From positions 186,001 through 250,000 of the forward strand of contig NZ_JALKAJ010000003.1 of NCBI RefSeq assembly GCF_023015615.1: DNA of 64,000 nt, given 5' to 3'. Position 1 is the first letter of the stretch. Each line of letters begins with the position of its first letter. Both the position numbers and the translations under genes were made by a program. The notes beneath the pieces are model-generated. The model was not told where the DNA came from. It made no database searches and saw only the letters and a list, made by a program, of their open reading frames with translations. The DNA is from Qipengyuania sp. S6317L1 (lineage in GTDB: Bacteria > Pseudomonadota > Alphaproteobacteria > Sphingomonadales > Sphingomonadaceae). Positions 5,828-24,766 of the stretch are shown one piece after another.

Positions 5828-5833
5828 GCGAGG

Positions 5834-6180: not shown

Positions 6181-6217
6181 CCAAGGGCGCCCTGTTGCGC
6201 GCCCTGCGGGAGGGCCC
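6181..6217. other. Short hairpin-prone gap between the ACP and FemAB/GNAT genes
   Basis: The gap contains AAGGGC near 6183-6188 and GCCCTT near 6212-6217, with GC-rich repeats of GCGCCC between them. It could fold in the minus-strand transcript and modulate expression between transferase and ACP. No T-run follows, so a classical terminator is not supported. Confidence 0.25.
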
Positions 6218-8832: not shown

Positions 8833-10061
8833 AAACCAAACCTCTGGGACCGATACCTGCAAGGTATGAAACCTTGGATGGTGAACTGGCGATTGGCGGG
8901 CGTAAAGCGAGCGCGCTTGTTGAAGCCGCAGGGCGCACGCCCTTGTTCGTCTATTCCAAATCTCACCTTGATGAGCGTGTGGCGACCCTTCGCGCCGCTA
9001 TCCCGCCGCGTATCGGGATCAACTATGCGGTGAAAGCCAATCCCCACCCGCAGGTGATATCCCACATGGCGCCCTTGGTCGATGGCTTCGACATTGCCTC
9101 TTCAGGCGAACTTTTGATGGTCCAGAAAGCCGGGATCGACCCGGCCCGCGTGAGCTTTGCAGGACCGGGCAAGCGCGATGACGAGCTTGAGGCTGCAATT
9201 TCGGCGGGCGTGACGCTCAATTGCGAGTCGGAGGGAGAGGCGCATCGCTCCCTCACGATTGGACAAACACTCGGCAAGACGCCGCGCATCGCGATCCGGG
9301 TCAATCCTGATTTCGAACTCAAGGGCTCCGGCATGAAAATGGGTGGAGGCGCGAAACCGTTTGGCGTCGATGCCAAGCGTGTTCCTGTGCTTGCGAAGCA
9401 AATTATCGCCGAAGGAGCCGAATGGCGCGGGCTTCATATCTTCACGGGCAGTCAAACGCTAAGCGCAGAAGCAATCACAGAAGCGCAGACCAACGTGTTG
9501 AATTTGGCTTTTTCTCTCACGCAAGAGATCGGTGCAACATTACCCAAACTCAATATGGGCGGCGGCTTTGGCATTCCCTATTTTCCGGGCGATAAGCCGC
9601 TTGATCTGTCCGCAGTTGGCGCAGCCCTTCATGAGCTCGTCGAGGCGCATGGCGCGGCCTTGGGCGACACGGAGCTTTGTCTTGAATTGGGGCGCTATCT
9701 CGTCGGAGAAGCGGGCGTTTACCTGTGCCGGGTGATTGATAAGAAAGTTAGCCATGATCAGACTTACCTGATCACCGATGGCGGCCTTCACCACCAGTTG
9801 GCGGCGTCCGGTAACTTTGGGACCGTGGTGAGACGGAACTATCCTGTGGCGAATGCTTCGCGCTTTGGCGAGGAAGCCAGCGAGGTTGCAAACGTGGTCG
9901 GGTGCCTTTGCACACCGTTGGACAGGCTCGCCGACATGGCTGAACTGCCGCGCACCGAGGTGGGTGATCTGGTCGCAGTCTTTTGTGCTGGCGCCTATGG
10001 GGCAAGCGCATCGCCGGCAAACTTTCTGGGACATGGTCCTGCGGCCGAGATGATTGTTTAA
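8829..10061 (+). CDS. PLP-dependent decarboxylase, exosortase A system-associated
   Basis: The 410-residue protein belongs to the alanine-racemase-fold (group IV) decarboxylases, which act on diaminopimelate, ornithine, arginine and related amino acids. Lys69 in YAVKANPHP should bind the cofactor. GGGFGIPYFPG provides the phosphate-binding glycines, and CLCTPLDRLAD and FCAGAYGASASP match the cysteine and C-terminal tyrosine sites. It is translated from an ATGA overlap with the ligase, so the two proteins probably act in one pathway. The product amine may be the acceptor for the locus's N-acyltransferase. Which amino acid it uses cannot be read from sequence. Confidence 0.9.
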   Translation: MKTKPLGPIPARYETLDGELAIGGRKASALVEAAGRTPLFVYSKSHLDERVATLRAAIPPRIGINYAVKANPHPQVISHMAPLVDGFDIASSGELLMVQKAGIDPARVSFAGPGKRDDELEAAISAGVTLNCESEGEAHRSLTIGQTLGKTPRIAIRVNPDFELKGSGMKMGGGAKPFGVDAKRVPVLAKQIIAEGAEWRGLHIFTGSQTLSAEAITEAQTNVLNLAFSLTQEIGATLPKLNMGGGFGIPYFPGDKPLDLSAVGAALHELVEAHGAALGDTELCLELGRYLVGEAGVYLCRVIDKKVSHDQTYLITDGGLHHQLAASGNFGTVVRRNYPVANASRFGEEASEVANVVGCLCTPLDRLADMAELPRTEVGDLVAVFCAGAYGASASPANFLGHGPAAEMIV

Positions 10062-10239: not shown

Positions 10240-10881
10240 ATGCCAAATTCGCCTTCTTTTGCTCGTCTTGCCGGCGTGTCTTTAGCGACGTTAACGCTGA
10301 CAGCCTGCGCGGGCACAGGACCAGAGCTACCGACTGCGACCTATGCAGATTCGCAAGCAGCGCCGACCGAAGAATACATCATCGGGCCGCTCGACCAGAT
10401 CACCATTCACGTCTGGCGCAATCCGGAATTGAGCGCCGAGGACATTCAGGTTCGTCCCGACGGACGGATCACGATCCCGCTTGTGCGCGACATGACCGCA
10501 GTCGGAAAAACCGCGACGCAGCTTCAAGACGATATTCGCGACGTGCTTGTCCAATATATCGAGCAACCGATCGTGTCGGTGATCGTCAACGAATTCAATT
10601 CAACCTTTGACCAGCAGATCCGCGTGGTCGGTTCAACCGAACAGCCCGCATCCCTGCCTTATCGCGCCAATATGACCGTCCTCGATGCGATGATCGCAGT
10701 CGGCGGTCTTGGTGAATTTGCGTCGGGCAACCGGGCCAAGCTGCTGCGGATCGACCGCGAGACGGGTGTTCAGAAGGAATACCGCCTGCGCCTTTCCGAT
10801 TTGATCAAGCGCGGCGACAGCACGGCGAATGTCATGCTGCGTCCGGGCGACACCATCATTATCCCTGAGAGCCGGTTCTAA
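10240..10881 (+). CDS. Wza-like polysaccharide export lipoprotein, XrtA/PEP-CTERM type
   Basis: The 213-residue protein is a periplasmic or outer-membrane polysaccharide export component. A lipoprotein signal ends at LTLTAC near residue 22. The polysaccharide biosynthesis/export domain begins at YIIGPLDQITIHVWRNPELS and continues with VRPDGRITIPLV. A SLBB-like segment follows, ending with VMLRPGDTIIIPESRF. It is shorter than E. coli Wza, as is usual for this family in XrtA loci. It opens the export operon, followed 18 bases later by the chain-length gene. It would form or gate the export channel with the beta-barrel protein downstream. Confidence 0.9.
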   Translation: MPNSPSFARLAGVSLATLTLTACAGTGPELPTATYADSQAAPTEEYIIGPLDQITIHVWRNPELSAEDIQVRPDGRITIPLVRDMTAVGKTATQLQDDIRDVLVQYIEQPIVSVIVNEFNSTFDQQIRVVGSTEQPASLPYRANMTVLDAMIAVGGLGEFASGNRAKLLRIDRETGVQKEYRLRLSDLIKRGDSTANVMLRPGDTIIIPESRF

Positions 10882-10899
10882 GGGAGCGTTGGGACCACA

Positions 10900-12423
10900 A
10901 TGCACGAGCTATTCGAAGAGCTGCGCACAGCGCTTTATTCGGTCTGGCACCGCCGCTGGATCGCGCTGGCTGTTGCCTGGGGGGTGTGCCTTGCAGGCTG
11001 GCTCGTCGTGGCGCTCATCCCCAATTCATACGAATCCAAGGCCCGTATCTATGTCGACGTCGAGGATGTTCTTTCCGAACAGCTTGGCATTGCAGGTGAC
11101 GGCAAAGAAGAGATCGCGCGCGTTCGCCAGACGCTTTTGAGCTCGGTCAACCTGGAGAAGGTCATCACCACCACCAAGCTGGGCGATGGGATACAGGACC
11201 GACAGGCGCTGGAGAGGGCGATATCTTCTTTGAGCGAGGACGTGAAGATCAGTAGCGAGGAGGACAATTTGTTCGCCATCACCGCGTCGGTGGGCAAAAG
11301 CGATTTGAGTGATGCTCAAAACGCCGTGCTTGCGCGCGATGTGGTACAAAAGCTGCTCGATATTTTCCGCGAAGAACACATCGCGGGCAACCGCGCCGAA
11401 ATCAGCGGCGCGATCAACGACCTCGACGATCAGCTTGAAGAGCGCAAGCTCGAGCTCGAAGCGGCTGAGCAACGGCGCCTTGCCTTCGAGGCTCAATACC
11501 CCGATCTTATCGGCGGTACACAAACGCTTTCCACCCGGGTTCAGCAATCGCGCACCGAACTGCGCGATATCGACGCCGACCTTGCAGCAGCGCAAAGCGC
11601 GCTTGCCGCGATGAACAGCCAGATCGCAAGCACTCCGCGCACGATCATCGGCTCCTCGGACGCTGTGGGACCGCAAGCTGCTCTGCTCGAGGCACAGTCG
11701 CAATTGGCCGGGCTTCGCTCGCGCGGGCTAACCGAAGAGCACCCTGATGTCATTTCAACCAGGCGCCAGGTGGATTTGCTGACTAAGCAAGTCGCGGGCG
11801 CTGGTCCCAATCAGGTTTCGGGCACACCGAACCCAGCTTACTCTTCGCTTATCGCTTTGCGCGCTGATCGTCAGGCTTCGATTGAATCGCTTCAATCGCG
11901 CCGCGCCGCGCTGCAATCGCAGCTGGCATCGCTTGCTGCGAGCCAGGCGACCGAACCTGCCGTTGCAGCCGAAGCAAACCGCATCAGCCGCGACTATGAG
12001 GTGCTGCGCGACAACTATGAAAAGTTGCTCGAAGATCGCGAAAAACTGCGCACACGCGGCGATGTGGTTGATGAAACCAGCCAGTATAAATTCGATCTCG
12101 TCGATCCGCCGGTCGTGCCGCAAAAACCAGCTGCTCCCAATCGTCCGCTTCTTTTGTTCGGCGTGCTTATCGCCGGGATCGGTGCGGGTGTGGGGATTGC
12201 ATGGATAATGGGCCAGCTGCGCTCGGGCTATGCCACGGCGCAAAAGCTTGAAAAATCGATGGGGCTGCCTGTCATCGGGTCAGTGTCGCTCAACCTTTCA
12301 CAAGCCGCCCAAACCTTGCGCAAACGGCGTTTGCGCCAGTTCGCAGGAGCCTGCGCGGGCCTTGTCGGCGTGCTTTGTATTCTTTTGGTGATCGAGGTCG
12401 TCTCGATTGGGACGATTGCGTGA
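10900..12423 (+). CDS. XrtA-system polysaccharide chain length determinant (Wzz family)
   Basis: This 507-residue inner-membrane protein controls polymer length and links polymerisation to export. An N-terminal membrane segment (about residues 18-38) is followed by a Wzz-type beta region (YESKARIYVDVEDVLSE). A long coiled coil with repeated Gln, Glu and Leu spans about residues 165-390, with the GLTEEHPDVISTRRQVDLL motif in it. The proline-rich PPVVPQKPAAPNRP precedes a second membrane segment, and the C-terminus has a third hydrophobic stretch. The cytoplasmic kinase is encoded separately in the next gene, as in XrtA loci. Confidence 0.9.
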   Translation: MHELFEELRTALYSVWHRRWIALAVAWGVCLAGWLVVALIPNSYESKARIYVDVEDVLSEQLGIAGDGKEEIARVRQTLLSSVNLEKVITTTKLGDGIQDRQALERAISSLSEDVKISSEEDNLFAITASVGKSDLSDAQNAVLARDVVQKLLDIFREEHIAGNRAEISGAINDLDDQLEERKLELEAAEQRRLAFEAQYPDLIGGTQTLSTRVQQSRTELRDIDADLAAAQSALAAMNSQIASTPRTIIGSSDAVGPQAALLEAQSQLAGLRSRGLTEEHPDVISTRRQVDLLTKQVAGAGPNQVSGTPNPAYSSLIALRADRQASIESLQSRRAALQSQLASLAASQATEPAVAAEANRISRDYEVLRDNYEKLLEDREKLRTRGDVVDETSQYKFDLVDPPVVPQKPAAPNRPLLLFGVLIAGIGAGVGIAWIMGQLRSGYATAQKLEKSMGLPVIGSVSLNLSQAAQTLRKRRLRQFAGACAGLVGVLCILLVIEVVSIGTIA

Positions 12424-12432
12424 GGAAGCACA

Positions 12433-13434
12433 GTGACTGATCAAAGCAACTTCTCCCGCAAAACGCTCGCCTCCTCCGGGGGCCGCACTTCCTTGTTTGA
12501 ACGTGCGGATGCTGTTTTTGGACTGGATGGGTTTGGCGCAAAGCCAGTGCCTGGCAATTTGCCTTTGGCATCTCGCCCGGTCGCACCGGCGCCATCAAAG
12601 CGTGAGGCGCAGAACGAACAACGTCAAGCTTCCGAACCGCCAAAAACCACCGCCGATAAGCAACAACCAGACCCTGAAACACAAAGACCTGAGCGTGCAG
12701 TTGCGCTGCGCGGGCCAAAGGTCTGCGTTGATCGTGATGTTCTCGAGGTAGAGGGGCTGATCACTCCAGGCGCTCCGGTCACCGGACTTCTCGAAGAGTT
12801 TCGGATCATCAAACGTGAGCTGCTTGCCGATGCGCGTCATGCAGGCGATGACCGGGCGCGCCGCATACTGGTCTGCTCGCCGCATCAGGGCGAGGGCAAG
12901 ACCTATTGCGCCGCCAATTTGGCCATTGCCCTCGCTGCTGAACGAGACATCGAGGTGGTTCTGGTGGATGCTGATGTTCTCAATCCGTCGGTTTCGCAGC
13001 GCCTTGGGGTCGAAACCGGTGCAGGGCTGATGGATGTGCTTGCCGACAAGAGCCTGCGCCCTGAAGACCACGTTTCGCCAACCGATATCGAAGGGCTTTT
13101 CATCCTGCCTGCGGGAACCAGCAGCGCGCGCGATTCAGAGTATCTCACAAGCGCGCGCACCGGCCAGGTGCTCGACCGACTAACTCAAGGTGCGCCCAAT
13201 CGTTTCCTTATTTTCGATACACCTCCGGCGCTCGCCGCATCGCCAGCAGCCGAACTTGCCGCCCATGTCGGCCAAGCCGTGATTGTAGTGCGCGCTGACG
13301 ATACAAGCCGCGCGGCACTCGACGATTCAGTCCAGCTTCTTTCCGCGTGCGACGACATCAAACTGCTTCTCAATGCAACACAATTCAGCCCGTCCGGTCG
13401 CCGCTTTGGCGACTATGGCGAAAGGGAGGGATGA
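12433..13434 (+). CDS. XrtA-associated tyrosine autokinase (BY-kinase)
   Basis: The 333-residue P-loop protein is a bacterial tyrosine kinase partner of the Wzz-like protein. A low-complexity, proline- and glutamine-rich N-terminus (about 1-90) precedes the kinase core. The Walker A motif is SPHQGEGKTYCAANLA, Walker A' is VVLVDADVLNPSVSQR, and FLIFDTPPAL fits Walker B. The C-terminus has only one tyrosine (GDYGEREG), so the usual tyrosine cluster is largely absent. Start is GTG 12433 after GAGGAAG. The stop overlaps an ATG for the next gene, indicating coupling. Confidence 0.88.
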   Translation: MTDQSNFSRKTLASSGGRTSLFERADAVFGLDGFGAKPVPGNLPLASRPVAPAPSKREAQNEQRQASEPPKTTADKQQPDPETQRPERAVALRGPKVCVDRDVLEVEGLITPGAPVTGLLEEFRIIKRELLADARHAGDDRARRILVCSPHQGEGKTYCAANLAIALAAERDIEVVLVDADVLNPSVSQRLGVETGAGLMDVLADKSLRPEDHVSPTDIEGLFILPAGTSSARDSEYLTSARTGQVLDRLTQGAPNRFLIFDTPPALAASPAAELAAHVGQAVIVVRADDTSRAALDDSVQLLSACDDIKLLLNATQFSPSGRRFGDYGEREG

Positions 13435-13436
13435 CC

Positions 13437-15059
13437 ATGCGTTATCTAAAAACTAGCCTTCTTGCAGGGATTGCATCTCTCGCAGCCGCTTCTCCGGCGA
13501 TGGCGCAAGAAGGGCCGCAATCCGATCAAGGTCGGGCCACCACCGTTCAACCCTATATCGAGGTTTCCCAGATCCTCACCGCGCAATTGGAGCCGGTGAG
13601 TGATCAACTGACCTACACCCAGGTTGCAGTCGGAGTGGACACCACCGTTCAAGGGCGTCGCAGCGGAGCTTCCGTGTCGGTGCGCTATGAGCGCAATTTC
13701 GGATGGGGTGATGATCAGGTTGATACCGACACCGTGAGCGGAATTGCGCGGGGATATCTTGAAGTTGTCCCCCGAGCGGTAACGTTACAGGCAGGCGCTC
13801 TTGCAAGCCGTAGCCGCGTTGATGGCGGCGGCGCTGTTTCAGTCAATCCTCTGGCCAGCGAAGATGCGACCAATCAGATCTACAGTGTTTACGCCGGTCC
13901 GGATTTCCAGACCCGCGCAGGCGCAGTCCATATCTCGGGCAATGCGCGCGTCGGTTATAACCGTTTCGAGGCCAACAACGCGGTTTTCGACGTCAACGGC
14001 GATCAGGTCGATGTATTCGATGACAGCGTAACGTATAGCGGCCAGATCGCCGCAGGCGTTCGTCCGGGCGAGGCTCTGCCCGTCGGCTTGGCGGTTAGCG
14101 CAGGCGGCTTTCAGGAAGACCTCTCAAACCTCGATCAGAGGGTGCGTGATGTTTACGTGCGCGGTGATGTGACCGTTCCGGTGACACCGGCGCTCGCTCT
14201 GGTTGGCGGCGTTGGATATGAAGACGTCGAAGTTTCGGGCCGCGATGCGGTGCGAGACGTCAATGGCGATCCAGTGTTCGACAGCAATGGCAGATTGGTC
14301 ACCGACAGCGCCTCCCCACGTCTTGTAGCGTTTGAGGTCGATGGATTGCTGTGGGATGTTGGCGTTTTGTGGCGCCCCAGTTCACGCACCAACCTCGAGG
14401 CGCGTGTTGGCCGTCGCTATGACAGCACGACCTACTACGGCACCTTCAGCTATCAGCCGAACCCGGGCGATTCGCTTGCGATTGCGGTCTACGATGGCAT
14501 TTCGGGGTTTGGCGGGGTCGTGAACAATTCTCTGTCACGCCTCTCGACCGATTTCTCGGTGCAGCGTAATCCTTTCTCCGGCGATTTTGGCGGGCTTGTG
14601 TCGAGCGATGAGGGTGTTGGCCTTGTCGGCGCGCTCGGTTCGGTCCGTTCGTCCGCTTTCCGCGGTCGCGGCGTCAATGCAAGCTACACCACGCAACTTG
14701 GCCGCATCAACGCAGCCATCGGTGCAGGATACGACCGTCGTACCTTTATCGCGGCTGCTGGTGGCGCGCTTGAAAGCGCCGATGGCATCCGTGACGAAAG
14801 CTACTACCTCACCGGCACTTTGAGCACGGACGTTGGCCGCAGCGGCGCGATTGCGACGACAGCCTATGCGAACTGGTTCACTTCGAACTCGGGTAATGGC
14901 GACCTCACAGCGGTTGGTGCAAGCGCTGCTTACAGCCGCACTCTTGCCGGCAGATTGTCAGCGCGAGCCGCGGTGGCGCTGGATTATTTCGACAGCGAAT
15001 TTTCGGACGAAGACTTTGCCACAGCCTCCGCGCTGCTTGGTCTGCGCTACGACTTTTAA
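13437..15059 (+). CDS. XrtA/PEP-CTERM-associated outer membrane beta-barrel protein
   Basis: From ATG 13437 the product has a clear signal peptide (MRYLKTSLLAGIA... cleaved after AMAQ). It is followed by alternating polar and apolar strands with many glycines and aromatics, and it ends in LRYDF, with the terminal phenylalanine recognised by the BAM complex. About 540 residues would allow a large barrel. The family recurs beside the Wza-like and ATPase genes in XrtA loci and may be the outer-membrane exit for the polymer. ATG 13437 sits six bases after GGAGGG; ATG 13431 and a longer upstream frame are less likely. No enzymatic motif is seen. Confidence 0.82.
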   Translation: MRYLKTSLLAGIASLAAASPAMAQEGPQSDQGRATTVQPYIEVSQILTAQLEPVSDQLTYTQVAVGVDTTVQGRRSGASVSVRYERNFGWGDDQVDTDTVSGIARGYLEVVPRAVTLQAGALASRSRVDGGGAVSVNPLASEDATNQIYSVYAGPDFQTRAGAVHISGNARVGYNRFEANNAVFDVNGDQVDVFDDSVTYSGQIAAGVRPGEALPVGLAVSAGGFQEDLSNLDQRVRDVYVRGDVTVPVTPALALVGGVGYEDVEVSGRDAVRDVNGDPVFDSNGRLVTDSASPRLVAFEVDGLLWDVGVLWRPSSRTNLEARVGRRYDSTTYYGTFSYQPNPGDSLAIAVYDGISGFGGVVNNSLSRLSTDFSVQRNPFSGDFGGLVSSDEGVGLVGALGSVRSSAFRGRGVNASYTTQLGRINAAIGAGYDRRTFIAAAGGALESADGIRDESYYLTGTLSTDVGRSGAIATTAYANWFTSNSGNGDLTAVGASAAYSRTLAGRLSARAAVALDYFDSEFSDEDFATASALLGLRYDF

Positions 15060-15083
15060 GAGATTCATGGAGCGTTAGGTAAC

Positions 15084-16331
15084 ATGTACGATTCTTATTA
15101 CGGCTTCACCGGGCGACCGTTTCAGCTAACCCCTGATCCCGAGTTCTATTTTGAGAGCGCAAGCCACAAGAAGGCGATGAGCTATCTTGGCTATGGCCTC
15201 AATCAGGGCGAGGGCTTCATCGTTATTACCGGTGAAGTGGGTGCAGGTAAGTCCACGCTGGTCGCTCATCTGATGGAGCGGATTGATCCGGAGGCCTTGA
15301 CCGTTGCCCAGGTGGTGACCTCCGCGCTGGACGGCGAAGAGCTGATCCATGTCGTTGCGCAAAGTTTTGGAATTGCTGTTGATGGCAAGGATAAAGCGGG
15401 CGCATTGGGTGCAATCGAGCAATTCCTCCAGGAAGAAGCGCGCGCAGGGCGTCGCTGCCTGTTGATCGTCGATGAGTGCCAGAACCTTGAGTTTACTGCG
15501 CTCGAAGAACTGCGGATGCTATCGAACTTTCAATTGGGTTCGCACCCGCTTTTGCAAAGTCTTTTGCTTGGCCAGCCGGAGTTCCGTCGCACCTTGGCGC
15601 ATCATCCGAATCTTGATCAGCTTCGCCAGCGGATTATCGCCTCGCACCACCTTGAGGCTTTGGATGCAGAAGAACTTGAAGATTACGTGCACCACCGTTT
15701 GGCGCATGTCGGCTGGGAACAGCAACCATCGCTTGAAGCTGGCCTGCTCACCGCATTGTATGATGCGACAGATGGCATACCGCGCCGTGTAAACCAGATC
15801 ATGAACCGTTTGCTTCTTCTTGGTGCAATCGAAGAGCGCGATGAGATTGGTTTAAGCATGCTTGATGCGGTGCTCGAAGAAATGTCCCAGGATCAGTCAC
15901 GCGGCGGATCCTTGCGCCAGGTGTCGCCGGAAATTGTTTCGCAGGACACGCTCGGTGAAGCTTCCGCGGAGCGGCTGCTCGATGAGAGAGGCGAGGAACA
16001 GGCCGAAGGTAAACCTGCTGGCGATGGGCCTGCTGAACCCGTTGATGCCGAAACCGAAATCGCAATCGAGAGCATTCCGGCAAGCGAGGTCGCGGCGATG
16101 ATGGCGCAGCGTGATGCCCGCGCTGCCGAATTGGAAGCGGCAATCGGCGAACTGCAGGCGGCTGGCGCTCGGCCGGACGAAGTTCATCTGCATGGTCCGA
16201 GCGAAGATGAATTCAATGAGGCCCTCGAACGTATTGAAGCGCGGCTTGAAGAGCAGGAACGCTCTTTCCGCCATGTGATGACCATGCTGATCGAATGGCT
16301 TGAGGACGATAAGTCGCGCGAGGCCGCCTAG
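15084..16331 (+). CDS. XrtA/PEP-CTERM-associated ExeA-like AAA ATPase
   Basis: The 415-residue protein starts with the typical MYDSYYGFTGRPFQLTPDP and carries Walker A GEVGAGKST (Lys56) and Walker B LLIVDECQNL. Both AAA motifs are intact over about residues 1-270. An acidic, low-complexity stretch follows, and the C-terminus is a predicted coiled coil (FNEALERIEARLEEQERSF). ExeA-type ATPases act in secretion across the envelope. Here the context suggests energising or organising polymer export. The next gene begins three bases after the stop. Confidence 0.88.
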   Translation: MYDSYYGFTGRPFQLTPDPEFYFESASHKKAMSYLGYGLNQGEGFIVITGEVGAGKSTLVAHLMERIDPEALTVAQVVTSALDGEELIHVVAQSFGIAVDGKDKAGALGAIEQFLQEEARAGRRCLLIVDECQNLEFTALEELRMLSNFQLGSHPLLQSLLLGQPEFRRTLAHHPNLDQLRQRIIASHHLEALDAEELEDYVHHRLAHVGWEQQPSLEAGLLTALYDATDGIPRRVNQIMNRLLLLGAIEERDEIGLSMLDAVLEEMSQDQSRGGSLRQVSPEIVSQDTLGEASAERLLDERGEEQAEGKPAGDGPAEPVDAETEIAIESIPASEVAAMMAQRDARAAELEAAIGELQAAGARPDEVHLHGPSEDEFNEALERIEARLEEQERSFRHVMTMLIEWLEDDKSREAA

Positions 16332-16334
16332 GCC

Positions 16335-17261
16335 ATGAACGCGCAGAGCCCTATTGGTTTCAAAGATGCTGTCGCAAGTCCCATTTCCAATGGACTTTCG
16401 GTCGATGTCGAAGACTGGTTCCAAGTCGGAGCCTTCGAGGATGTCATTGACCGGGGTGATTGGGATGGCCTGACAAGCCGGGTCGAGCGCAACGTGGACG
16501 AAATCCTCGCGCTATTCGGCGAGGCTGGGGTGCGCGCGACCTTCTTCACCCTTGGATGGATAGCAGAGCGTTATCCGCAATCCATTCGCCGCATCGCCGA
16601 GGCGGGCCATGAGATAGCCAGTCATGGCTACGATCATGCGCGGGTATTCACCCTTGATCCGGGCAAATTCGCAGAGGATATCCGCAAGACTCGTGAAATC
16701 CTTGAAGATGCGACGGGACAGCCTGTCATCGGCTATCGGGCGCCGAGCTTTTCGATTGATCCGCGATCGCTTTGGGCTCTCGATGTGCTGGCAGAGCAGG
16801 GCTATAAATATTCATCCAGCGTCGCACCGGTCGTGCACGACCATTATGGTTGGCGCGAGGCACCACGTTTTGCCTTTCGCCCGGTTGCAGGGTCGGACCT
16901 GATTGAAATTCCGGTGACAACCGCGCTTCTAGGCTCGCGCCGATTGGCAGCGGGCGGTGGCGGCTTTTTCCGTGTTCTCCCCTATGGCTTCTCGCGTTGG
17001 GCGATTGCACAAGTGAACCGTGAGGACGAGCGGCCAGCGGTGTTTTATTTCCACCCTTGGGAAGTCGATCCCCGACAGCCGCGTGTTGGCAATGCTGGGC
17101 TGCGCTCGAAGCTGCGTCACTACACCAATTTGGACAAAATGGCCGATAAGCTGCGCAAGCTTGTGCGCGAGTTTCATTGGGGCCGCATGGATGCACTTGC
17201 CGAAATTGAGGCAAGCCGTGCTTTTGATTTTCCCGTCTCGCAGCGTGAGCCTGCGCGATGA
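16335..17261 (+). CDS. XrtA-system polysaccharide deacetylase
   Basis: This NodB-type carbohydrate esterase 4 removes acetyl groups from N-acetylated sugars in the polymer. Key motifs are LSVDVEDWFQ (catalytic base and metal aspartates), VRATFFTLGW, EIASHGYDHARVF (metal histidines) and GYRAPSFSID. A C-terminal YFHPWEVDPRQPR provides the last histidine. With 308 residues and no signal peptide it probably acts on the cytoplasmic or membrane side, as in other XrtA loci. It overlaps the FemAB gene by four bases (ATGA). Confidence 0.9.
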   Translation: MNAQSPIGFKDAVASPISNGLSVDVEDWFQVGAFEDVIDRGDWDGLTSRVERNVDEILALFGEAGVRATFFTLGWIAERYPQSIRRIAEAGHEIASHGYDHARVFTLDPGKFAEDIRKTREILEDATGQPVIGYRAPSFSIDPRSLWALDVLAEQGYKYSSSVAPVVHDHYGWREAPRFAFRPVAGSDLIEIPVTTALLGSRRLAAGGGGFFRVLPYGFSRWAIAQVNREDERPAVFYFHPWEVDPRQPRVGNAGLRSKLRHYTNLDKMADKLRKLVREFHWGRMDALAEIEASRAFDFPVSQREPAR

Positions 17262-18319
17262 ATGCGCCGGTAAGCCTTTCTCTCAACGCGCGGGCGGTTG
17301 ATCTGGCTGACGCCGCAATGCGCATGCGGCTCGATGGGTTCGTGCAAGAGATGGGCGCAAGTGTCTTTCACAGGCCGAACTGGCTACTTGCTGTCGAGAA
17401 ATCGACTGGCCAACGCGCTGGCGGATTTGTGGTCGAACAACTGGGCGTCATTCAGGGTTGGTTGCCACTGACGGAGGTGCGCTCCCTTCTTTTTGGGAAG
17501 GCTCTTGTTTCCAGCGGCTTTGGCGTGGGTGGCGGCGTATGTGCAGAGCGGCCCGAAGTCGCGGCGAAACTCGCTGGAGCAGCGCAAAACCTTGCCAAGG
17601 CAAAAGGCTTCGCCAGCGTTGAACTGCGTGGCGGCGAGGTGCCCGAAGGGTGGCATGCCATCGCCAACAAGCACTGCGGTTTTGAGCGAGATTTGGCCGA
17701 GGACAATGAAGCGGAGCTTCTCGCTATCCCGCGCAAATCGCGCGCAGAGGTGCGCAAGGGGCTCAAAAACAATCTCGAGGTGCGCGTCGGGCGCTCGTCA
17801 CAGGATTTGGCAGCGCACTACGCCTGCTACTCGCAGAGCGTGCGCAACCTTGGCACACCGGTTTTTCCAAGGGCTCTTTTCAAGCAAATGCTCGAAGCCT
17901 TCCCGGAAGAAAGCGACATCCTCACGATTTCGCGTGATGGTACACCGCTGGCAAGTGTCCTTTCGTTCTACCACGATGGGGCGGTGCTTCCGTTTTGGGG
18001 CGGGGGCAGCTTTGCTGCGAGGGCAGCGCGCGCGAACGAACTCATGTATTTTGAGCTTATGCGCCATGCTCGGCAGCGCGGAATGAAGCGGTTCGACTTC
18101 GGCCGTTCCAAAACCGGAAGCGGACCTGCAAAGTTCAAAAAGAATTGGGGCTTTGATCCTCAACCTCTCGTTTATGGGATGTGGACCGCGCCGGGCGAGG
18201 CGCGACGCGATGTGGACCCAACAAGCGAAGCGTACAGCCGCAAGATCGAACTTTGGAAGAAGCTGCCGCTCCCGATCGCCAATACCATTGGCCCATTCAT
18301 CGCGCGCGGCCTCGCGTGA
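17258..18319 (+). CDS. FemAB-related protein, XrtA/PEP-CTERM-associated
   Basis: The 353-residue product belongs to the FemAB/BioF2 acyl or aminoacyl transferase group. GFVVEQLGVIQGWLPLTEV is in the first GNAT-like half, and RKSRAEVRKGLKN, FWGGGSFAARAARANELMY and FDFGRSKTGSGPAKFKKNWGF in the second, where the donor would bind. It is a second FemAB-like protein besides the one at 6218-7279, but lies in the export operon. It might attach an amino-acyl or acyl group to the polymer or to its lipid carrier, which is inference. Both ends are tightly packed against neighbours. Confidence 0.86.
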   Translation: MNAPVSLSLNARAVDLADAAMRMRLDGFVQEMGASVFHRPNWLLAVEKSTGQRAGGFVVEQLGVIQGWLPLTEVRSLLFGKALVSSGFGVGGGVCAERPEVAAKLAGAAQNLAKAKGFASVELRGGEVPEGWHAIANKHCGFERDLAEDNEAELLAIPRKSRAEVRKGLKNNLEVRVGRSSQDLAAHYACYSQSVRNLGTPVFPRALFKQMLEAFPEESDILTISRDGTPLASVLSFYHDGAVLPFWGGGSFAARAARANELMYFELMRHARQRGMKRFDFGRSKTGSGPAKFKKNWGFDPQPLVYGMWTAPGEARRDVDPTSEAYSRKIELWKKLPLPIANTIGPFIARGLA

Positions 18320-18331
18320 GGGAACGCTTCG

Positions 18332-19555
18332 ATGGGTGAAATCCTCTTTCTTGCACACCGCGTGCCGTTCCCGCCCAATCGCGGGGACAAGATTCGCAGC
18401 TCTAACCTTCTTAAAAAGCTCGCCAAGCTAGCCCCGGTTCACGTGGGCTGTTTTGCCGAGAGTACCGAAGACAGGGAAGGAGCCAAAGAGGTCGCCTCGC
18501 TTGCCGCTTCGCACTGTGTCGTCAATCGGACCAAGCCGCTTGTTTCGGCCGGCGTCGAAGCGGTGCTTTCAGGAAAGCCTGTAAGCCTCACTGCCTTTCA
18601 TTCGTCCCGGATAGAAAACTGGGTGCGCAAAACAATCTCCTCGCGCCCTATCACCACGATCTTCGTTTTTTCGGGGCAGATGGGCCAATACATCCCCGAA
18701 GACTTCAAAGGCCGGGTGGTGATTGACCTGTGCGATGTCGATAGCGCCAAGTTTGAAAATTACGCCTCCGCAGGTCAGCGCGTGTGGCTCAACTCTCGTG
18801 AAGGGCGGCTGTTGGCACGCGAGGAAGAGCGTTTGGCGAAGCGGGCCGATGCAACGATCCTGATTAGCGAAAACGAGGCTGATCTTTTCTGCTCGCGGCT
18901 CTCGGAGCCTGAGAAGGTGAATGTTCAGGTCATCGGCAATGGCATCGATACTGATTTCTTCGATCCCTCACTCTCCACGCCCCACGCCGATCTTGAGGCC
19001 AGATCCGGACCGCATTTCGTATTCACCGGACAAATGGATTATCCACCAAACGAGCAGGCTGCGTTATGGGCGATTGGGTCGTTCTGGGCTGACTACAATG
19101 CCGAGAACCCCGATGCTGAAATCCATGTTGTCGGGCGCAACCCGACCAGGCGGCTGCAAGACAAGGACGGGCAGGGTGCCACGATCTGGGGAGAGGTCCC
19201 TGATGTGCGCCCTTTCATTGCCGCTGCTGACTGCGTCGTGGTGCCGCTATCGATCGCGCGCGGGGTTCAGAACAAAGTGCTGGAGGCTATGGCAATGGCG
19301 CGCCCCGTATTGCTGACCAAGCAAGCGGCGACCGGCATTGATGCGGTCGATGGCAAACACTGGATGCTGTGCGAAGACAGACCCGAGGCGATGGCCGCGC
19401 GGATTGATGCCCTGCGCGCCAATCCCGACGCCGCGAAAGCCATGGGGAAGGCGGCACGGCAATTCGTTCTCGATCACCACAATTGGGATGCCATGCTCGC
19501 CCCGCTAGAAGCGCTTATCGATCTGCGCCACGTGGAAGCCCGCGATGCCGCCTGA
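18332..19555 (+). CDS. Glycosyltransferase (sugar transferase), XrtA/PEP-CTERM-associated
   Basis: This 407-residue GT-B family 4 glycosyltransferase starts with ILFLAHRVPFPPNRGDKIRS, a signature of the XrtA-linked sugar transferase. The C-terminal nucleotide-sugar domain shows FVFTGQMDYPPNEQA, VVGRNPTRRL, DVRPFIAAADCVVVPL and RGVQNKVLEAMAMARPV, which includes the glutamates that bind the donor. It would add one sugar to the growing lipid-linked unit. No priming transferase or other glycosyltransferase is visible in the window, so the rest of the glycan must be built elsewhere. It overlaps the exosortase gene by 11 bases. Confidence 0.9.
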   Translation: MGEILFLAHRVPFPPNRGDKIRSSNLLKKLAKLAPVHVGCFAESTEDREGAKEVASLAASHCVVNRTKPLVSAGVEAVLSGKPVSLTAFHSSRIENWVRKTISSRPITTIFVFSGQMGQYIPEDFKGRVVIDLCDVDSAKFENYASAGQRVWLNSREGRLLAREEERLAKRADATILISENEADLFCSRLSEPEKVNVQVIGNGIDTDFFDPSLSTPHADLEARSGPHFVFTGQMDYPPNEQAALWAIGSFWADYNAENPDAEIHVVGRNPTRRLQDKDGQGATIWGEVPDVRPFIAAADCVVVPLSIARGVQNKVLEAMAMARPVLLTKQAATGIDAVDGKHWMLCEDRPEAMAARIDALRANPDAAKAMGKAARQFVLDHHNWDAMLAPLEALIDLRHVEARDAA

Positions 19556-20576
19556 AACGACATTTAGTCCCGCGTCAAAACAAGCCGTTTTCTCTCGGAT
19601 CAGCCCCAAGTGGCGCGAGGCTCTGGTCGTTCTCATCCTTGGCGCTTTGGCAAGTGTTGTTGTTACCATTCGCGAATGGGCAGAGATGCTGCACCAGTGG
19701 TGGAATATCGACACCTATTCCCACATTCTCCTCATTCCGATCATCATCGGCTGGCTCGTTGCGCTCAAGGCGAGCGAGTTGGCTAAACTCGCTCCAAGAC
19801 CTTGGTTACCGGGTCTGGGTGTGGTCGCCCTGGGGCTTTCGCTTTGGCTTATAGGGCGTGTCACCGAGACAAATCTGATCGCCCACGCTGGCGCTGTGGG
19901 AACGCTTCAGGGCATCGTTATCGCTGTGTTGGGACCAAGAGTGTGCACGGTGATTGCGCTTCCCTTGTGTTTCGGGGTTTTCCTAGTGCCATTTGGCGAC
20001 GAAATCATCGAGCCCTTGCAAGTTGTCACCGCCGAGATAGCCATTTGGCTCACCCACTTAAGCGGCATCCCCGCTTTTTCGGACGGCATCTATATCGATA
20101 CGCCCGTGGGCCTTTTCATTGTTGCCGAGGCGTGTTCGGGCGTGCGCTTTCTTATCGCGATGATCACCCTTTCGGTCTTGGTCGCTTATACCCGTTTCAC
20201 CAGTTGGTCCCGAAGAGCCGCTTTCATGGTGGCCTCAATCATTGTCCCGGTTGTCGCAAATGGCGTCCGGGCATGGGGCACCATCTATATCGCGCAATCC
20301 CAAGGCGTCGACTTCGCGGCAGGCTTTGACCACGTTTTTTACGGCTGGTTTTTCTTCGCCTTCGTTGTCGTCCTCATCCTCGGCTGTGCGTGGCGCTATT
20401 TCGAGCGCGATCCCGAAGACTACGGCTGGCGTGCCGAAGAAGTGCTGAGCTTTGCGATATTAGACCGTTTTGCAGGTCCCAACACACCGTCTGCATCGAT
20501 CCTGGCTGGCATCCTCGCGTTTTGTATTCTTGCAGGCGGCGCGGCGGTGATTGCTGGCTCTGCGGCAATAGGGTAG
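19545..20576 (+). CDS. xrtA: Exosortase A (XrtA), PEP-CTERM sorting transpeptidase
   Basis: The 343-residue polytopic membrane protein would cleave proteins bearing a C-terminal PEP-CTERM signal and transfer them to another acceptor. About eight membrane segments are evident. The catalytic triad is complete: Cys197 in EACSGVR, Arg242 in NGVRAWG and His263 in FDHVFYGW. Many XrtA proteins continue into an EpsI domain; here the gene stops about 50 residues after the last core segment and the next gene begins 10 bases later, so EpsI is absent. No PEP-CTERM substrate is encoded in the window. Confidence 0.95.
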   Translation: MPPETTFSPASKQAVFSRISPKWREALVVLILGALASVVVTIREWAEMLHQWWNIDTYSHILLIPIIIGWLVALKASELAKLAPRPWLPGLGVVALGLSLWLIGRVTETNLIAHAGAVGTLQGIVIAVLGPRVCTVIALPLCFGVFLVPFGDEIIEPLQVVTAEIAIWLTHLSGIPAFSDGIYIDTPVGLFIVAEACSGVRFLIAMITLSVLVAYTRFTSWSRRAAFMVASIIVPVVANGVRAWGTIYIAQSQGVDFAAGFDHVFYGWFFFAFVVVLILGCAWRYFERDPEDYGWRAEEVLSFAILDRFAGPNTPSASILAGILAFCILAGGAAVIAGSAAIG

Positions 20577-20586: not shown

Positions 20587-22485
20587 ATGTGCGGGATCGC
20601 GGGGATATTTCATCGAGAGACGCTTAAGCCGGTCGATCCTGCTCGGGTCGAGCGGATGTGCGATGCTATGGTGCATCGAGGGCCGGATGGGGCAGGGGTC
20701 TGGACCGAGCGTGGCGTGGGTCTCGGGCATCGCCGCCTTTCCATCATCGACCTTGAGGGATCGCCTCAGCCGATGGTCTCAACCGATGGCAGGGCGGTGA
20801 TCGTTTTCAACGGCGAGATCTATAACTTCCGCGAACTTCGCGCCCGGCTGGAGCGAGAAGGGGCGCAGTTGCGAACCTCTGGCGATACCGAGGTCATTCT
20901 CGCCGCCTGGCAGCGTTGGGGCCCTGATTGCCTCTCGCGCCTTGATGGCATGTTCGCCTTTGCAATTTATGATTTGGAGCGGCGGCAGCTTTTTCTGGCG
21001 CGCGATCGGCTTGGCGTAAAACCGCTCTTTCTCTCGCACCTTTCCGATGGCAGCCTGATTTTTGCTTCCGAGCTCAAGGGGCTTTTGGCGCACCCAATGA
21101 TGCGCCGACGGATCAATCCGCAGGCAATCGAGGCCTATATGACCTGGGGCTATGTGCCTGATAGCCATTCCATCCTCGATGGGGTGACGAAGTTGCAAGC
21201 CGGCCATTTTCTGTTGCTCGAACACGGCAAGCCGATGCCCGCACAACGACGTTGGTGGGACATCAGTTTCGAGAAGCGGGCAAAAGGCAAGGAAGCCGAT
21301 CTTTCCGCTGAACTTGTGCATTTGCTTCGAGAGGCGGTGCAATCGCGCATGGTAGCAGACGTGCCGCTTGGCGCGTTTCTGTCGGGCGGGGTCGATTCAT
21401 CTAGCGTCGTCGCCTTGATGAGCGAGGCGAGCCCTCAGCCAGTCCGCACCTGCTCGATAGGTTTCGATGTCGAAGCGTTGGATGAGACCAGTTACGCCGA
21501 GATGATCGCAAAGCAATTCGGCACTTCGCACGAGGCACGCGTGGTGAGCCAGAATGATTTTGGAGACATCGACAGGCTCGCTGCCATGTTTGATGAGCCG
21601 TTTGCCGATGCTTCTGCTCTGCCAACATGGCGGGTGTGCCAATTGGCGCGCGAGAAGGTCACCGTGGCGCTTTCCGGAGATGGCGCAGACGAGGCATTCG
21701 CTGGTTACAGGCGACAGGTTTTCCATCAGGGTGAAGAGCGAGTGCGCTCGCTTCTGCCAGCAGGTTTACGGCAACCATTGTTCGGCGGGCTTGGCCGATT
21801 CTGGCCAAAGGCCGATTGGGCGCCGCGCCCCTTGAGGGCAAAGACCACTTTCCTCTCACTGGCTCAGAGTGGGGAGGAGGGCTACGCAAACGCCTTAAGC
21901 GTCACCACGCCTGACCTGCGCTCAAAGCTTTTTACGCCGAAATTTGCTTCGCACCTTGGCGGGTTTTGCGCCGAAGAAGAACTCATTGATCTGATGAAGA
22001 ACGCGCCCGCGAGATCGGGGCTGGACCGCGCGCAGTATGCCGACCTTACATTCTGGCTGCCGGGCGACATCCTCACCAAGGTTGACCGCACAAGCATGGC
22101 GGTGAGCCTTGAAGCGCGTGAACCTTTGCTCGACCATCGCCTTGTGGAGTTCGCGGCCAAACTTCCTGAAAGTATGCGCGTGCGTTCGGGGACGGGTAAG
22201 TATCTGCTCAAGAAGTGTATGGAGCGCTATCTTCCGAGGGACGTCCTCTACCGGCCAAAACAAGGGTTTGTGACCCCTATCGCCAATTGGATGCGGGGGC
22301 CATTGGCCGGTGAAATCCGGGCGATCGCATCGCGTTCTTCGCTTGTACAGGCGGGGTGGGTCAATCCCGCTTTCGTGACGCAAATGGCCGATGCCCACAT
22401 CGCCGGACGAAGCGATTATTCGCGCACCCTGTGGCAAATGTTGATGCTTGAAAAATCATTGAAGGCTATGGGCGCACAACCTTGA
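20587..22485 (+). CDS. XrtA-system amidotransferase 1 (asparagine synthase family)
   Basis: The 632-residue protein has a class II glutamine amidotransferase domain with nucleophile Cys2 (MCGIAGIF) and an asparagine-synthase ATP-pyrophosphatase domain with the PP-loop FLSGGVDSSSVVALM near residue 265. GDGADEAFAGYRR and LPGDILTKVDRTSMA are further conserved sites. It would move ammonia from glutamine to a carboxylate, in this context probably on a sugar acid or peptide component of the polymer rather than free aspartate. It is the last gene of the export operon. True asparagine synthetase activity cannot be excluded. Confidence 0.92.
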   Translation: MCGIAGIFHRETLKPVDPARVERMCDAMVHRGPDGAGVWTERGVGLGHRRLSIIDLEGSPQPMVSTDGRAVIVFNGEIYNFRELRARLEREGAQLRTSGDTEVILAAWQRWGPDCLSRLDGMFAFAIYDLERRQLFLARDRLGVKPLFLSHLSDGSLIFASELKGLLAHPMMRRRINPQAIEAYMTWGYVPDSHSILDGVTKLQAGHFLLLEHGKPMPAQRRWWDISFEKRAKGKEADLSAELVHLLREAVQSRMVADVPLGAFLSGGVDSSSVVALMSEASPQPVRTCSIGFDVEALDETSYAEMIAKQFGTSHEARVVSQNDFGDIDRLAAMFDEPFADASALPTWRVCQLAREKVTVALSGDGADEAFAGYRRQVFHQGEERVRSLLPAGLRQPLFGGLGRFWPKADWAPRPLRAKTTFLSLAQSGEEGYANALSVTTPDLRSKLFTPKFASHLGGFCAEEELIDLMKNAPARSGLDRAQYADLTFWLPGDILTKVDRTSMAVSLEAREPLLDHRLVEFAAKLPESMRVRSGTGKYLLKKCMERYLPRDVLYRPKQGFVTPIANWMRGPLAGEIRAIASRSSLVQAGWVNPAFVTQMADAHIAGRSDYSRTLWQMLMLEKSLKAMGAQP

Positions 22486-22714: not shown

Positions 22715-23638
22715 ATGGACAGTAGTGCGGGAAATCCTCTCCCCTATTCAGGCGAAGAGGATACTCTTGCCGAAAGTATTCTGAACAATTCCGTGCCCGG
22801 CGGATTGTTCGAACTCCGAGAGCTTGATGTCCTTTACGATGACCAATCGGCGGCCTTGTGGACTTTTATGCGTCCGGAAGGCAGGCCAAGTTTTACGCCT
22901 ACCATGCTCAAAGACTTCGAGCGCTGGCAAGACCTCATCTCCGATGGCTTTGGCGAAGAGAAGGTTCCGCTTCGCTATCTCATCCTCGGCAGCCGATCGC
23001 AGGATGTGTTTTGCTTCGGCGGCGATCTTGAACTGTTTCAACATCTGATTCGCACCCGGGATCGCGCCGGTCTGGTCAAATATGGCCACCGGTGCTGTGC
23101 AATTCTGGAACGCAATGTCCGCTCACTCGATCTGCCGATGCTGACAATCGGGCTCGTGCAGGGCGCGGCTCTTGGCGGTGGTTTCGAAGCCCTGCTTTCG
23201 TTTGATTATATCATTGCCGAACGCCACGCGACGTTTGGCCTGCCTGAGATCATGTTTGGTCTCTATCCGGGTATGGGTGCCCATGTATTCCTCGCCCGAA
23301 AGCTGGGCACGGCAATGGCCGAGCGCATCATTTTGTCGAACAAGACCTACACCGCACAAGAATTGTACGACCTTGGTCTGGTCCATCAGATCGCAGAGCC
23401 GGGTGAGGGCGTGAGTGCGGTTCGCGAGTTCATCAGCAAATCGGAGCGTCGCCACTCTGGCCTAGCTGGGGCACACCAAGCGACCAAGATGGTCTGGCCG
23501 GTCAAACTCGACGAATTGAACGCAATTACCGAGCTTTGGGCCGATACCGCGCTCAAATTGTCAGAGCAGGATCTGAAGGTGATGAGCCGACTGGTAGCAG
23601 CGCAAGCGCGCCTCGCTGATCGGCTTGCCGCAGCATAA
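22715..23638 (+). CDS. Crotonase-fold enzyme resembling the DSF synthase RpfF
   Basis: The product is an enoyl-CoA hydratase/isomerase superfamily protein. Two glutamates, Glu158 in GGGFEALLS and Glu178 in GLPEIMFGLYPGMGAH, are 20 residues apart, matching Glu141 and Glu161 known from Xanthomonas RpfF. The flanking GLVQGAALGGGFEA and LYPGMGA blocks are close to RpfF as I remember it. RpfF turns 3-hydroxyacyl-ACP into cis-2-unsaturated fatty-acid signals through dehydratase and thioesterase activity. ATG 22715 has a clear ribosome site; ATG 22673 adds 14 residues. No rpfC or rpfG partner is adjacent. A generic hydratase is the alternative. Confidence 0.78.
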   Translation: MDSSAGNPLPYSGEEDTLAESILNNSVPGGLFELRELDVLYDDQSAALWTFMRPEGRPSFTPTMLKDFERWQDLISDGFGEEKVPLRYLILGSRSQDVFCFGGDLELFQHLIRTRDRAGLVKYGHRCCAILERNVRSLDLPMLTIGLVQGAALGGGFEALLSFDYIIAERHATFGLPEIMFGLYPGMGAHVFLARKLGTAMAERIILSNKTYTAQELYDLGLVHQIAEPGEGVSAVREFISKSERRHSGLAGAHQATKMVWPVKLDELNAITELWADTALKLSEQDLKVMSRLVAAQARLADRLAAA

Positions 23639-23644: not shown

Positions 23645-24766
23645 TTAGTCAGACGCTCCGTCGCTTCCATGGCCAAGCGCCATGTATTCGTCGCTCTGCA
23701 TCTCGTTAAGACGGCTCACTGTCCTTTCAAACTCGAAGCTGCCATCACCTGACTGGTAGAGTGCCTCGGGCTTGGTCGCAGCGGTCGCGAAAAGCTTCAC
23801 GCGGTGTTCGTAAAGTGCATCAATCAGTGTCACAAAGCGCGCCGCTTCATTCCTGTTTTCAGGGCCCATCTGCGGGATCCCGACGATGATGACAGTGTGA
23901 TACTCGCGTGCAATCGCGAGATAATCGGGCGCCCCGCGTGCGTCATGGCACAGGCGCTTAAAGCTGAAAACCGCGACACCTTTCAGAGATTTGGGGACGT
24001 GCATCGTCCGTTTCGAGCCAACTGCAAGCTCGCCCGAAGGGACGTTTTCTGCATCTTCAGGATCGAAATCGGTGAGCCGGAAGAACACCTCACGCACGCG
24101 CGCGGTCGCCTCGTCACCCAGGGGCGAATACCAGCTATTGAGCCCGCCTATCCGATCAAGCCGGTAGTCGGTCGGGCCGTCAAGCGTGAGCACATCAAGC
24201 TCGGCCTCTATCAAATCGATAAAGGGCAGGAAGTGTTCGCGGTTGAGCCCGTCTTTATAAAGCTCGCTCGGCGCACGGTTGGATGTAGTGACAATGGTGA
24301 CGCCTTGCTCCATGATGAGCTGGGTAAAAAGCCGGCTCATTATCATCGCGTCGGCCGAATTGGTCACCACCATTTCGTCAAAAGCGAGCACTCTAACCCT
24401 GTCGGCAAGCTTTGCGGCAACGGGTGGAATGGGATCGCCTGCGTGCGTCTTGCGCGCCTCGCGCATTTCGGCGTGCACTTCTTGCATAAAGGCGTGGAAG
24501 TGCACGCGTCGTTTCTCGGCAATGCTCAGGCTTTCGTGGAACAGGTCCATCAACATGGACTTGCCGCGTCCCACTCCGCCCACCATGTACACACCTTCGG
24601 CGCGCGCAGGTTTGCTTGCGAAGAATTGCGCGAGAAGTCCGCCGGGTTTTTCGGCCTCCAGCTCTTTTTGCAGCCGGTCTAGCCGGGCCGCAGCGCGTCT
24701 TTGGTCGGGGTCTTCGCGAAGCTCGCCATTGGCAATAAGCTGTTCGTATCGCGCAAGGGTGCCCAT
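23645..24766 (-). CDS. zapE: Cell division protein ZapE (AFG1-like ATPase)
   Basis: The 373-residue P-loop ATPase of the AFG1/ZapE family shows Walker A GGVGRGKSM near residue 65, and RVHFHAFMQEVHAEM and LAFDEMVVTNSADAMI (Walker B and sensor region). FRLTDFDPEDAENVP and FSFKRLCHDARGAPDYL follow. ZapE destabilises or regulates FtsZ rings in other bacteria; mitochondrial AFG1 works in respiratory-protein turnover. It lies at the end of an operon with a thioesterase and sdhB and overlaps the thioesterase by one base. It converges on the crotonase gene with a gap of only six bases. Confidence 0.93.
   Translation of the reverse strand: MGTLARYEQLIANGELREDPDQRRAAARLDRLQKELEAEKPGGLLAQFFASKPARAEGVYMVGGVGRGKSMLMDLFHESLSIAEKRRVHFHAFMQEVHAEMREARKTHAGDPIPPVAAKLADRVRVLAFDEMVVTNSADAMIMSRLFTQLIMEQGVTIVTTSNRAPSELYKDGLNREHFLPFIDLIEAELDVLTLDGPTDYRLDRIGGLNSWYSPLGDEATARVREVFFRLTDFDPEDAENVPSGELAVGSKRTMHVPKSLKGVAVFSFKRLCHDARGAPDYLAIAREYHTVIIVGIPQMGPENRNEAARFVTLIDALYEHRVKLFATAATKPEALYQSGDGSFEFERTVSRLNEMQSDEYMALGHGSDGASD

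Follow-up and report, generated by a model that had tools for sequence, protein, structure and literature searches.

The best-supported explanation of our results is that the RpfF-like gene in the window (by which we mean the whole stretch of 64,000 nucleotides analysed) encodes one half of a split pair, in which an RpfF-family synthase and a membrane GGDEF-EAL receptor encoded elsewhere in the genome would act together through c-di-GMP. We consider this explanation likely, and propose the pair as an arrangement distinct from both RpfF-RpfC/G and RpfF-RpfR, the third of its kind. Its computed basis consists of the family and catalytic pocket of the synthase, the adjacency of the two genes in relatives, their co-occurrence and repeated joint absence across genomes, and the empty site found where the synthase gene is missing. 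These observations suggest that the tight partner of the synthase is the unlinked membrane GGDEF-EAL protein, not the adjoining polymer genes.

In the proposed pathway, the synthase would dehydrate a 3-hydroxyacyl-ACP and release a free cis-2-enoic (DSF-type) fatty acid, by analogy with known RpfF enzymes, for which the portions of PMC4504480 and PMC6361424 available to us describe a 3-hydroxyacyl-ACP substrate and a released cis-2 acid. The candidate receptor would then sense the acid within the membrane by binding it, and its GGDEF-EAL part would alter c-di-GMP turnover, much as RpfR does by way of a PAS domain, the sign of the change being presumed as well. The neighbouring polymer may be one of the presumed downstream targets, and a c-di-GMP link from the synthase signal to exopolysaccharide is possible.

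An RpfF/DfsA-type synthase in the window

The open frame runs on the forward strand from an upstream ATG at 22673 to 23638 (321 aa), and its second ATG, at 22715, gives a 307-aa protein that starts where the closest relatives start. We preferred 22715 because of this better fit, which leaves ATG 22673 as the less likely start. The RpfF-like ORF noticed earlier at 22715-23638 is thus real, with an open frame and a start supported by relatives. Its product scores 352.5 bits against the PRK08788 profile (NF006452; cut-off 177) and 213.8 bits against the xanthomonad RpfF equivalog NF053515 (cut-off 550), placing it in the former family and outside that equivalog. Its best PDB sequence matches are 7zq7 (1.2e-53) and the RpfF structure 3m6m (1e-51), followed by 5fus and 6dgn (about 3e-40), with the first ordinary hydratase, 3rsi, appearing at 4.8e-19. 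The AlphaFold2 model (mean pLDDT 87.3) superposes on five RpfF/DfsA structures with Z scores of 36.0-37.7, compared with at most 28.9 for the other crotonases listed. The closest named relative, among the best 80 of at least 528 loci, is that of Erythrobacter longus (78% identical), which makes the genome a probable Erythrobacter.

In a tree of 106 rows (rows longer than 450 aa trimmed to their RpfF part; L123 and L156 absent because no RpfF ORF was called there), a branch with an SH-aLRT of 100 parts the RpfF-type rows, including four solved RpfFs, from three crotonases of the same genome as the window. These three served as the outgroup, out of seven own-genome crotonase loci (L002-L008) of which two had no matching ORF and two were over-long. 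The solved RpfFs group with kinase-linked relatives; the inner order of the tree is unsure because the outgroup branches are long. The phylogenetic comparison with ordinary hydratases suggested in the earlier note therefore places the synthase with RpfF, as do the fold scores.

The same note had pointed to two catalytic glutamates, 20 residues apart and matching RpfF, and this reading held: E172 and E192 (321-aa numbering; E158 and E178 in the 307-aa protein) align with E141 and E161 of Xcc RpfF. All of the Xcc pocket residues G85, L136, G137, G138, E141, E161, G169, M170, W258 and L276 are conserved in the synthase, where Xcc numbers are obtained by a uniform shift of 31, which holds at each of the ten residues examined, and where the list and the roles of the residues come from the accessible part of a review (PMC9864630). 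The two glutamates and the pocket residues, among them M170, W258 and L276 (M201, W289 and L307 in the 321-aa numbering of the synthase), are common to all four PDB RpfF rows. As a family mark, on the other hand, the spacing of the glutamates is present but not diagnostic, and we dropped it as evidence because, of three ordinary crotonases encoded by this genome, two have it too. Taken together, profile, fold, tree and pocket residues support the assignment of the gene to the DSF synthases of the RpfF/DfsA family and set it apart from ordinary hydratases; its product very probably synthesises a signalling molecule of the fatty-acid type.

A conserved slot beside exosortase A

The synthase gene adjoins an XrtA/PEP-CTERM exopolysaccharide cluster, identified by TIGR profiles, with the TIGR03108 amidotransferase gene directly upstream (Table 1), which bears out its described placement beside an exosortase A locus. 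As also noted earlier, neither rpfC nor rpfG is found among the classified neighbours of the synthase in the window, and the HD-GYP family (PF13487) has no match in the genome. Scanning 22380-23800 for promoters and terminators gave one promoter-like and two terminator-like sites; these counts are close to the means for shuffled sequence (1.0 and 1.7), so that we draw no conclusion about a separate rpfF transcript.

Table 1. Coordinates of the synthase, its neighbours in the window and the candidate receptor
Feature	Position	Strand	Basis
Hydrolase 1 (TIGR03100)	within 4335..7279	-	TIGR profile
Hydrolase-2-like ORF (TIGR03101, below its cut-off)	within 4335..7279	-	profile
Phosphopantetheine carrier protein	5834-6184	-	
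GNAT-type acetyltransferase	6218-7279	-	
XrtA-system genes for an acyl-CoA ligase (TIGR03098) and a PLP-dependent decarboxylase (TIGR03099)	7252..10061	+	
XrtA cluster: export TIGR03027, chain length TIGR03007, ParA/AAA-type ATPase ORF	within 10240..19555	+	
XrtA cluster: 570-aa ORF, no Pfam match	within 10240..19555	+	
XrtA cluster: ATPase TIGR03015, deacetylase TIGR03006, FemAB TIGR03019, glycosyltransferase TIGR03087	within 10240..19555	+	
Exosortase A (TIGR03109)	19545..20576	+	
XrtA/PEP-CTERM amidotransferase (TIGR03108); bounds the slot on its upstream side	20587..22485	+	
RpfF/DfsA-type synthase (PRK08788 family), 307 aa	22715..23638	+	profile, fold, tree, pocket residues
AFG1-type ATPase, convergent to the synthase; bounds the slot on its downstream side	23645..24766	-	
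Thioesterase-family ORF	24766-25251	-	
SdhB-type iron-sulfur protein	25254-26036	-	
Candidate membrane GGDEF-EAL receptor, 661 aa	G000:C3:4337-6322 (outside the window)	+	profile search

Among 147 genomes of the order, RpfF-like proteins of at least 200 bits occur in 21, and in 14 of these the gene lies within 9 kb of an over-cut-off xrtA. We compared 20 xrtA regions taken from genomes selected for the absence of rpfF. In 19 of them AFG1 and SdhB come after the amidotransferase, directly in 10 and with other gene(s) between in 9; in the last one (G105), AFG1 and SdhB fall outside the fetched region. Synteny is thus otherwise conserved with or without the synthase gene, and a conserved slot exists between the XrtA cluster and the AFG1 ATPase, in which rpfF is an insertion/deletion. 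Where the synthase and the receptor gene are separated (80 genomes of the family sample described below), the synthase lies upstream of AFG1/SdhB in all 33 inspected.

Ten of the 108 rpfF-positive genomes of the family sample have no xrtA over its cut-off. The receptor gene is adjacent to rpfF in four of them, and five others (G382, G405, G335, G308 and G024, the last being locus L104) keep rpfF in the slot and have matches to the acyl ligase, carrier protein and decarboxylase upstream of it; the sixth genome of the split type, G305, has a contig that ends at the locus. These five genomes indicate that exosortase A is unnecessary for retention of the gene, and, since ligase, carrier and decarboxylase stay beside it, that rpfF may be in partnership with that module. 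At five loci (L075, L082, L106, L109 and L112), ABC exporter genes or large ORFs separate the amidotransferase gene from the synthase gene (an ATPase and ABC-2 permeases in L075 and L082, which were read, and an HlyD-like gene in L075), suggesting that the slot beside AFG1 accepts various genes. We rejected adjacency as proof of function, as the slot may be filled or empty and rpfF is kept without xrtA, and we conclude that the location of the gene next to exosortase A says little about what the synthase does. The idea in the earlier note that adjacency ties the signal to the polymer therefore stands weakly at best, next to a tight partner that is unlinked.

A candidate receptor elsewhere in the genome

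The candidate receptor, with intact GGDEF, EAL and DDFGTG motifs, is the only one of its kind in the genome. Its N-terminus contains about six hydrophobic helices arranged in a bundle, after which the GGDEF-EAL part follows; the predicted structure of this N-terminal part is a helix bundle of fair confidence (mean pLDDT 84.4), and its hydrophobic helices lead us to read it as a putative membrane domain. Pfam matched only GGDEF and EAL in the protein, with no PAS and no match for the N-terminal domain, and a Foldseek search with the membrane domain gave no match at E <= 0.001. Among the structures compared with the N-terminal part, the six-helix domain of adenylyl cyclase AC9 (7pd4) scored highest, with a Z of 11.5 (rmsd 3.6, 181 residues aligned; best unrelated row 8.9), and Rv1625c (7yzk) gave a Z of 6.4. 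Helical bundles may match by chance below a Z of about 13, a range that includes the AC9 score, and we therefore treat the similarity to AC9 as a lead only.

The genome of the window has 11 places with an EAL domain, including the candidate receptor. Pfam on ten of them (all but L247) found a PAS match in two, L239 and L242, and the N-terminal part of L242 had no RpfR match among PDB sequences. When a hybrid kinase linked to RpfF in a relative was used as the single query, only its kinase and receiver regions were matched elsewhere in the genome, and its input part was not. An RpfC/G pathway in this genome was rejected on this result together with the lack of a PF13487 (HD-GYP) match. The search for RpfC or RpfR receptors recommended in the earlier note thus gave neither a PF13487 protein nor, with that single query, an RpfC input part, while leaving PAS matches in two of ten EAL places.

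Adjacency of synthase and candidate receptor genes in relatives

Classified by marker matches, the best 80 of at least 528 named loci, which come partly from the same genomes as the samples of 147 and 397 genomes, comprise 27 with rpfF in the XrtA-AFG1 slot, 35 with a membrane GGDEF-EAL gene, 14 with a hybrid histidine kinase and 4 others. Several contigs are short, and xrtA itself is visible in 20 of the 27 slot-type loci. Synthase and membrane GGDEF-EAL gene are adjacent in Sphingomonas, Sphingobium, Parasphingopyxis and some Rhizobiales. Both ORFs were called at 34 of the 35 loci of this type, and the genes are convergent in 28 (end gaps of -69 to 52 bp) and divergent in 6. In Erythrobacter and its relatives, the synthase gene occupies the slot between the XrtA cluster and AFG1-sdhB, separate from the receptor gene. 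Three loci with a convergent receptor gene (L120, L127 and L084, the last in G097) have a second, long GGDEF-EAL gene directly upstream of rpfF.

Co-occurrence across genomes and its relation to kinship

In the order sample of 147 genomes, all 17 genomes with an RpfF of more than 300 bits have a full-length homologue of the receptor, unlinked to rpfF in 15; among the other 130, a strong homologue occurs in 10 and a weak one (up to 27 bits) in another 10, where "strong" means at least 61 bits, a limit chosen after viewing the list. The family sample of 397 genomes, with profile thresholds (RpfF at least 250 bits, receptor at least 140 bits) set after seeing the gaps in the scores, has RpfF in 108 genomes and the receptor in 130: both in 108, the receptor only in 22 and neither in 267. 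Put differently, the receptor is present in 108 of 108 rpfF-positive genomes and in 22 of 289 others. The two genes lie within 5 kb of each other in 28 genomes and apart in 80 (in 49 they share a contig, with 70 kb or more between them, and in 31 they fall on separate contigs), and when the 28 adjacent pairs are removed, the receptor is still found in 80 of 80. Six genomes with a receptor match of 60-72 bits were scored as lacking it, none of them among the 108. A lower-scoring RpfF-like protein (195-235 bits) occurs in 22 genomes, none with the receptor; the four examined (G060, G145, G117 and G178) are of the histidine-kinase type.

The receptor-only genomes (G016, G039, G065, G071, G074, G094, G099, G105, G114, G134, G210, G228, G231, G254, G271, G324, G327, G337, G370, G384, G395 and G396) are possibly listeners that have no synthase. 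The GGDEF motif reads AGDEF in two (G065 and G099) of the five such genomes whose motifs were read.

Fisher values computed on the 397 genomes ignore kinship. We made contrasts within the 13 genera that contain both rpfF-positive and rpfF-negative genomes, counting only those rpfF-negative genomes whose genus was given: in ten genera the receptor is missing along with the synthase, none went the opposite way and three were ties (sign test, p 0.002). Six of the ten concordant genera have adjacent pairs, which means that the split pair is tested by four only (g1, g14, g15 and g27), with a p of 0.125 for these alone. A tree of SdhB, AFG1 and thioesterase from 52 genomes (G105 left out, there being no SdhB in its region) offered eight independent pairs that differ in rpfF; the receptor changed in the same direction in five, in the opposite direction in none and not at all in three (median p 0.0625), which for the split pair is suggestive but not significant.

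As a control we took a different GGDEF-EAL protein from the same genome and used its N-terminal domain, present in 36 of the 147 genomes (a first control domain, from L244, was found in 3 of 147 and was too rare to be useful). In the rpfF-negative genomes of g1, g14 and g15, the control domain is kept in 12 of 12 and a strong receptor match in 1 of 12. The control domain is also enriched in rpfF genomes (13 of 17 vs 23 of 130), which gives a gauge of what kinship alone yields. Moreover, RpfF and receptor distances are correlated over 15 split-gene genomes with an r of 0.88, ranking third of 101 gene pairs; the two are each other's best partner by this measure, the two higher-ranking pairs being genes of one cluster. 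Correlations with the receptor were nearly as high for the glycosyltransferase (0.79) and the 570-aa ORF (0.84), and some ORF calls in this comparison are unsure (AFG1 gives an r of 0.02 with RpfF).

Alternative explanations

Two alternatives concern the reaction itself. An ordinary beta-oxidation enoyl-CoA hydratase would share its superfamily and its two glutamates with the synthase, but the tree branch, the Z scores and the C-terminal W289/L307 pocket all favour RpfF, and we rejected this highly improbable reading. The synthase could also belong to the XrtA cluster as a biosynthetic crotonase, working on acyl-ACP supplied by the ligase (TIGR03098) and carrier protein so as to build or decorate the polymer or the anchor of the polymer. 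The cluster does contain an acyl ligase, a carrier protein and a PLP decarboxylase, and these accompany rpfF in all five xrtA-less genomes with a readable slot. However, the sensor-adjacent relatives show no matches to this module within 10 kb on each side, save for a weak ligase match in L134, the rpfF considered here is missing from 167 of 265 xrtA genomes, and the complete co-occurrence with the receptor would be left unexplained; we regard such a role as quite improbable.

The other two concern the purpose and the reader of the signal. A DSF signal dedicated to the neighbouring exopolysaccharide, with adaptive co-location, would be compatible with the split pair, and it draws on the 14 of 21 RpfF-like genomes of the order in which rpfF lies near xrtA and on a Burkholderia RpfR mutant with altered exopolysaccharide control, as described in the part of PMC9684580 available to us. 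Against it, xrtA over its cut-off is found in 98 of 108 rpfF-positive genomes but also in 167 of 289 others, a weaker tie than that of the receptor, a tenth or so of the rpfF-positive genomes do without it, and one conserved slot next to AFG1-sdhB explains the location, all of which makes dedication to the polymer unlikely. Finally, the co-occurrence might reflect kinship only, the signal being read by some other protein or the synthase being an orphan. The 22 receptor genomes without this rpfF fit such a reading, and both the 52-genome tree test and the four split-pair genera alone fall short of significance; it is nevertheless opposed by adjacency in two orientations and in several families, by within-genus contrasts of ten to none and by a control domain that is not co-lost in g1, g14 and g15, and we consider it rather unlikely.

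Comparison with known DSF systems

The split pair, as the explanation we favour, has features of both core routes of DSF perception, RpfC/G and RpfR, that are named in the accessible part of a review (PMC4504480). Like the RpfF-RpfR system (BDSF; Burkholderia, Cronobacter), it would combine an RpfF-family synthase with a GGDEF-EAL partner, and the genes are mostly convergent where they are adjacent, as are rpfF and rpfR in Burkholderia and Cronobacter (PMC4504480 and PMC6361424, in the portions available). Unlike RpfR, which is soluble and has an FI and PAS input, the candidate receptor has a hydrophobic helix bundle as its input and no PAS match, and the pair is unlinked in Erythrobacter and relatives. 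With the xanthomonad RpfF-RpfC-RpfG system it would share the RpfF-family synthase, a membrane input domain (predicted here) and a c-di-GMP output, but no HD-GYP protein was found in the genome and the proposed receptor involves no histidine kinase step. We regard the pair as a variant within DSF signalling, with features that define the two known core systems missing (HD-GYP RpfG from the genome, PAS input from the proposed receptor).

Six-helix membrane domains of adenylyl cyclases (mammals, Rv1625c) are reported as fatty-acid receptors in the parts of PMC11606603 and PMC12505454 that we could consult. The candidate receptor may resemble AC9 and Rv1625c in its predicted helix arrangement and in carrying a membrane domain on a nucleotide second-messenger enzyme; it differs in its catalytic domains, and the similarity is one of predicted fold, with no sequence match shown. 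A broader and more tentative version of our proposal is that Alphaproteobacteria widely possess a core DSF pathway, the third of its kind, in which RpfF would be paired with an AC-like six-helix receptor that binds the fatty acid directly and drives GGDEF-EAL, the pair being split in Erythrobacter and relatives with the synthase beside exosortase A, and receptor-only genomes listening.

In the literature on DSF and RpfF in sphingomonads and other Alphaproteobacteria we found no such synthase/receptor pair, and none joining RpfF with exosortase, in searches that covered few subscription papers; Sphingobium is absent among the matches listed for RpfF/RpfR. Diffusible signal factors are mentioned among the quorum-sensing genes of an Erythrobacter-containing community, with no synthase or receptor named in the available part of that paper (PMC8406228). 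If the proposal is true, the membrane GGDEF-EAL partner seen with every rpfF of the family sample constitutes a third route of DSF perception, and DSF signalling extends to many sphingomonads and other alphaproteobacteria, with a concrete candidate receptor named. It also carries a caution, namely that a neighbourhood such as that of exosortase A can suggest a doubtful partner, and co-occurrence across genomes an unlinked one.

Other arrangements of rpfF

Hybrid-kinase loci of other relatives stand closer to RpfF-RpfC-RpfG. In L147, L148, L154, L158-L162, L166, L168, L085, L086 and L088, rpfF lies beside two genes, one for a hybrid histidine kinase (of HisKA-HATPase-REC-HPt make-up in L085) and one for a protein of the REC-PAS-GGDEF-EAL type, a strong match to the latter being present at 10 of the 14 hybrid-kinase loci. 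The layout is RpfC-like, with GGDEF-EAL replacing the HD-GYP of RpfG. An RpfF-like gene also occurs in a metagenome-assembled genome labelled Terriglobia (Acidobacteriota; L155), with no kinase or GGDEF-EAL reference match nearby. Lastly, in L087 (5122-7011, reverse strand; G006) an RpfF-like domain is joined in one protein with a C-terminal domain like that of haem-oxygenase-like iron enzymes (PF14518), and the fusion gene adjoins a REC-PAS histidine-kinase-like ORF; perhaps the fusion makes a fatty acid and then modifies it further.
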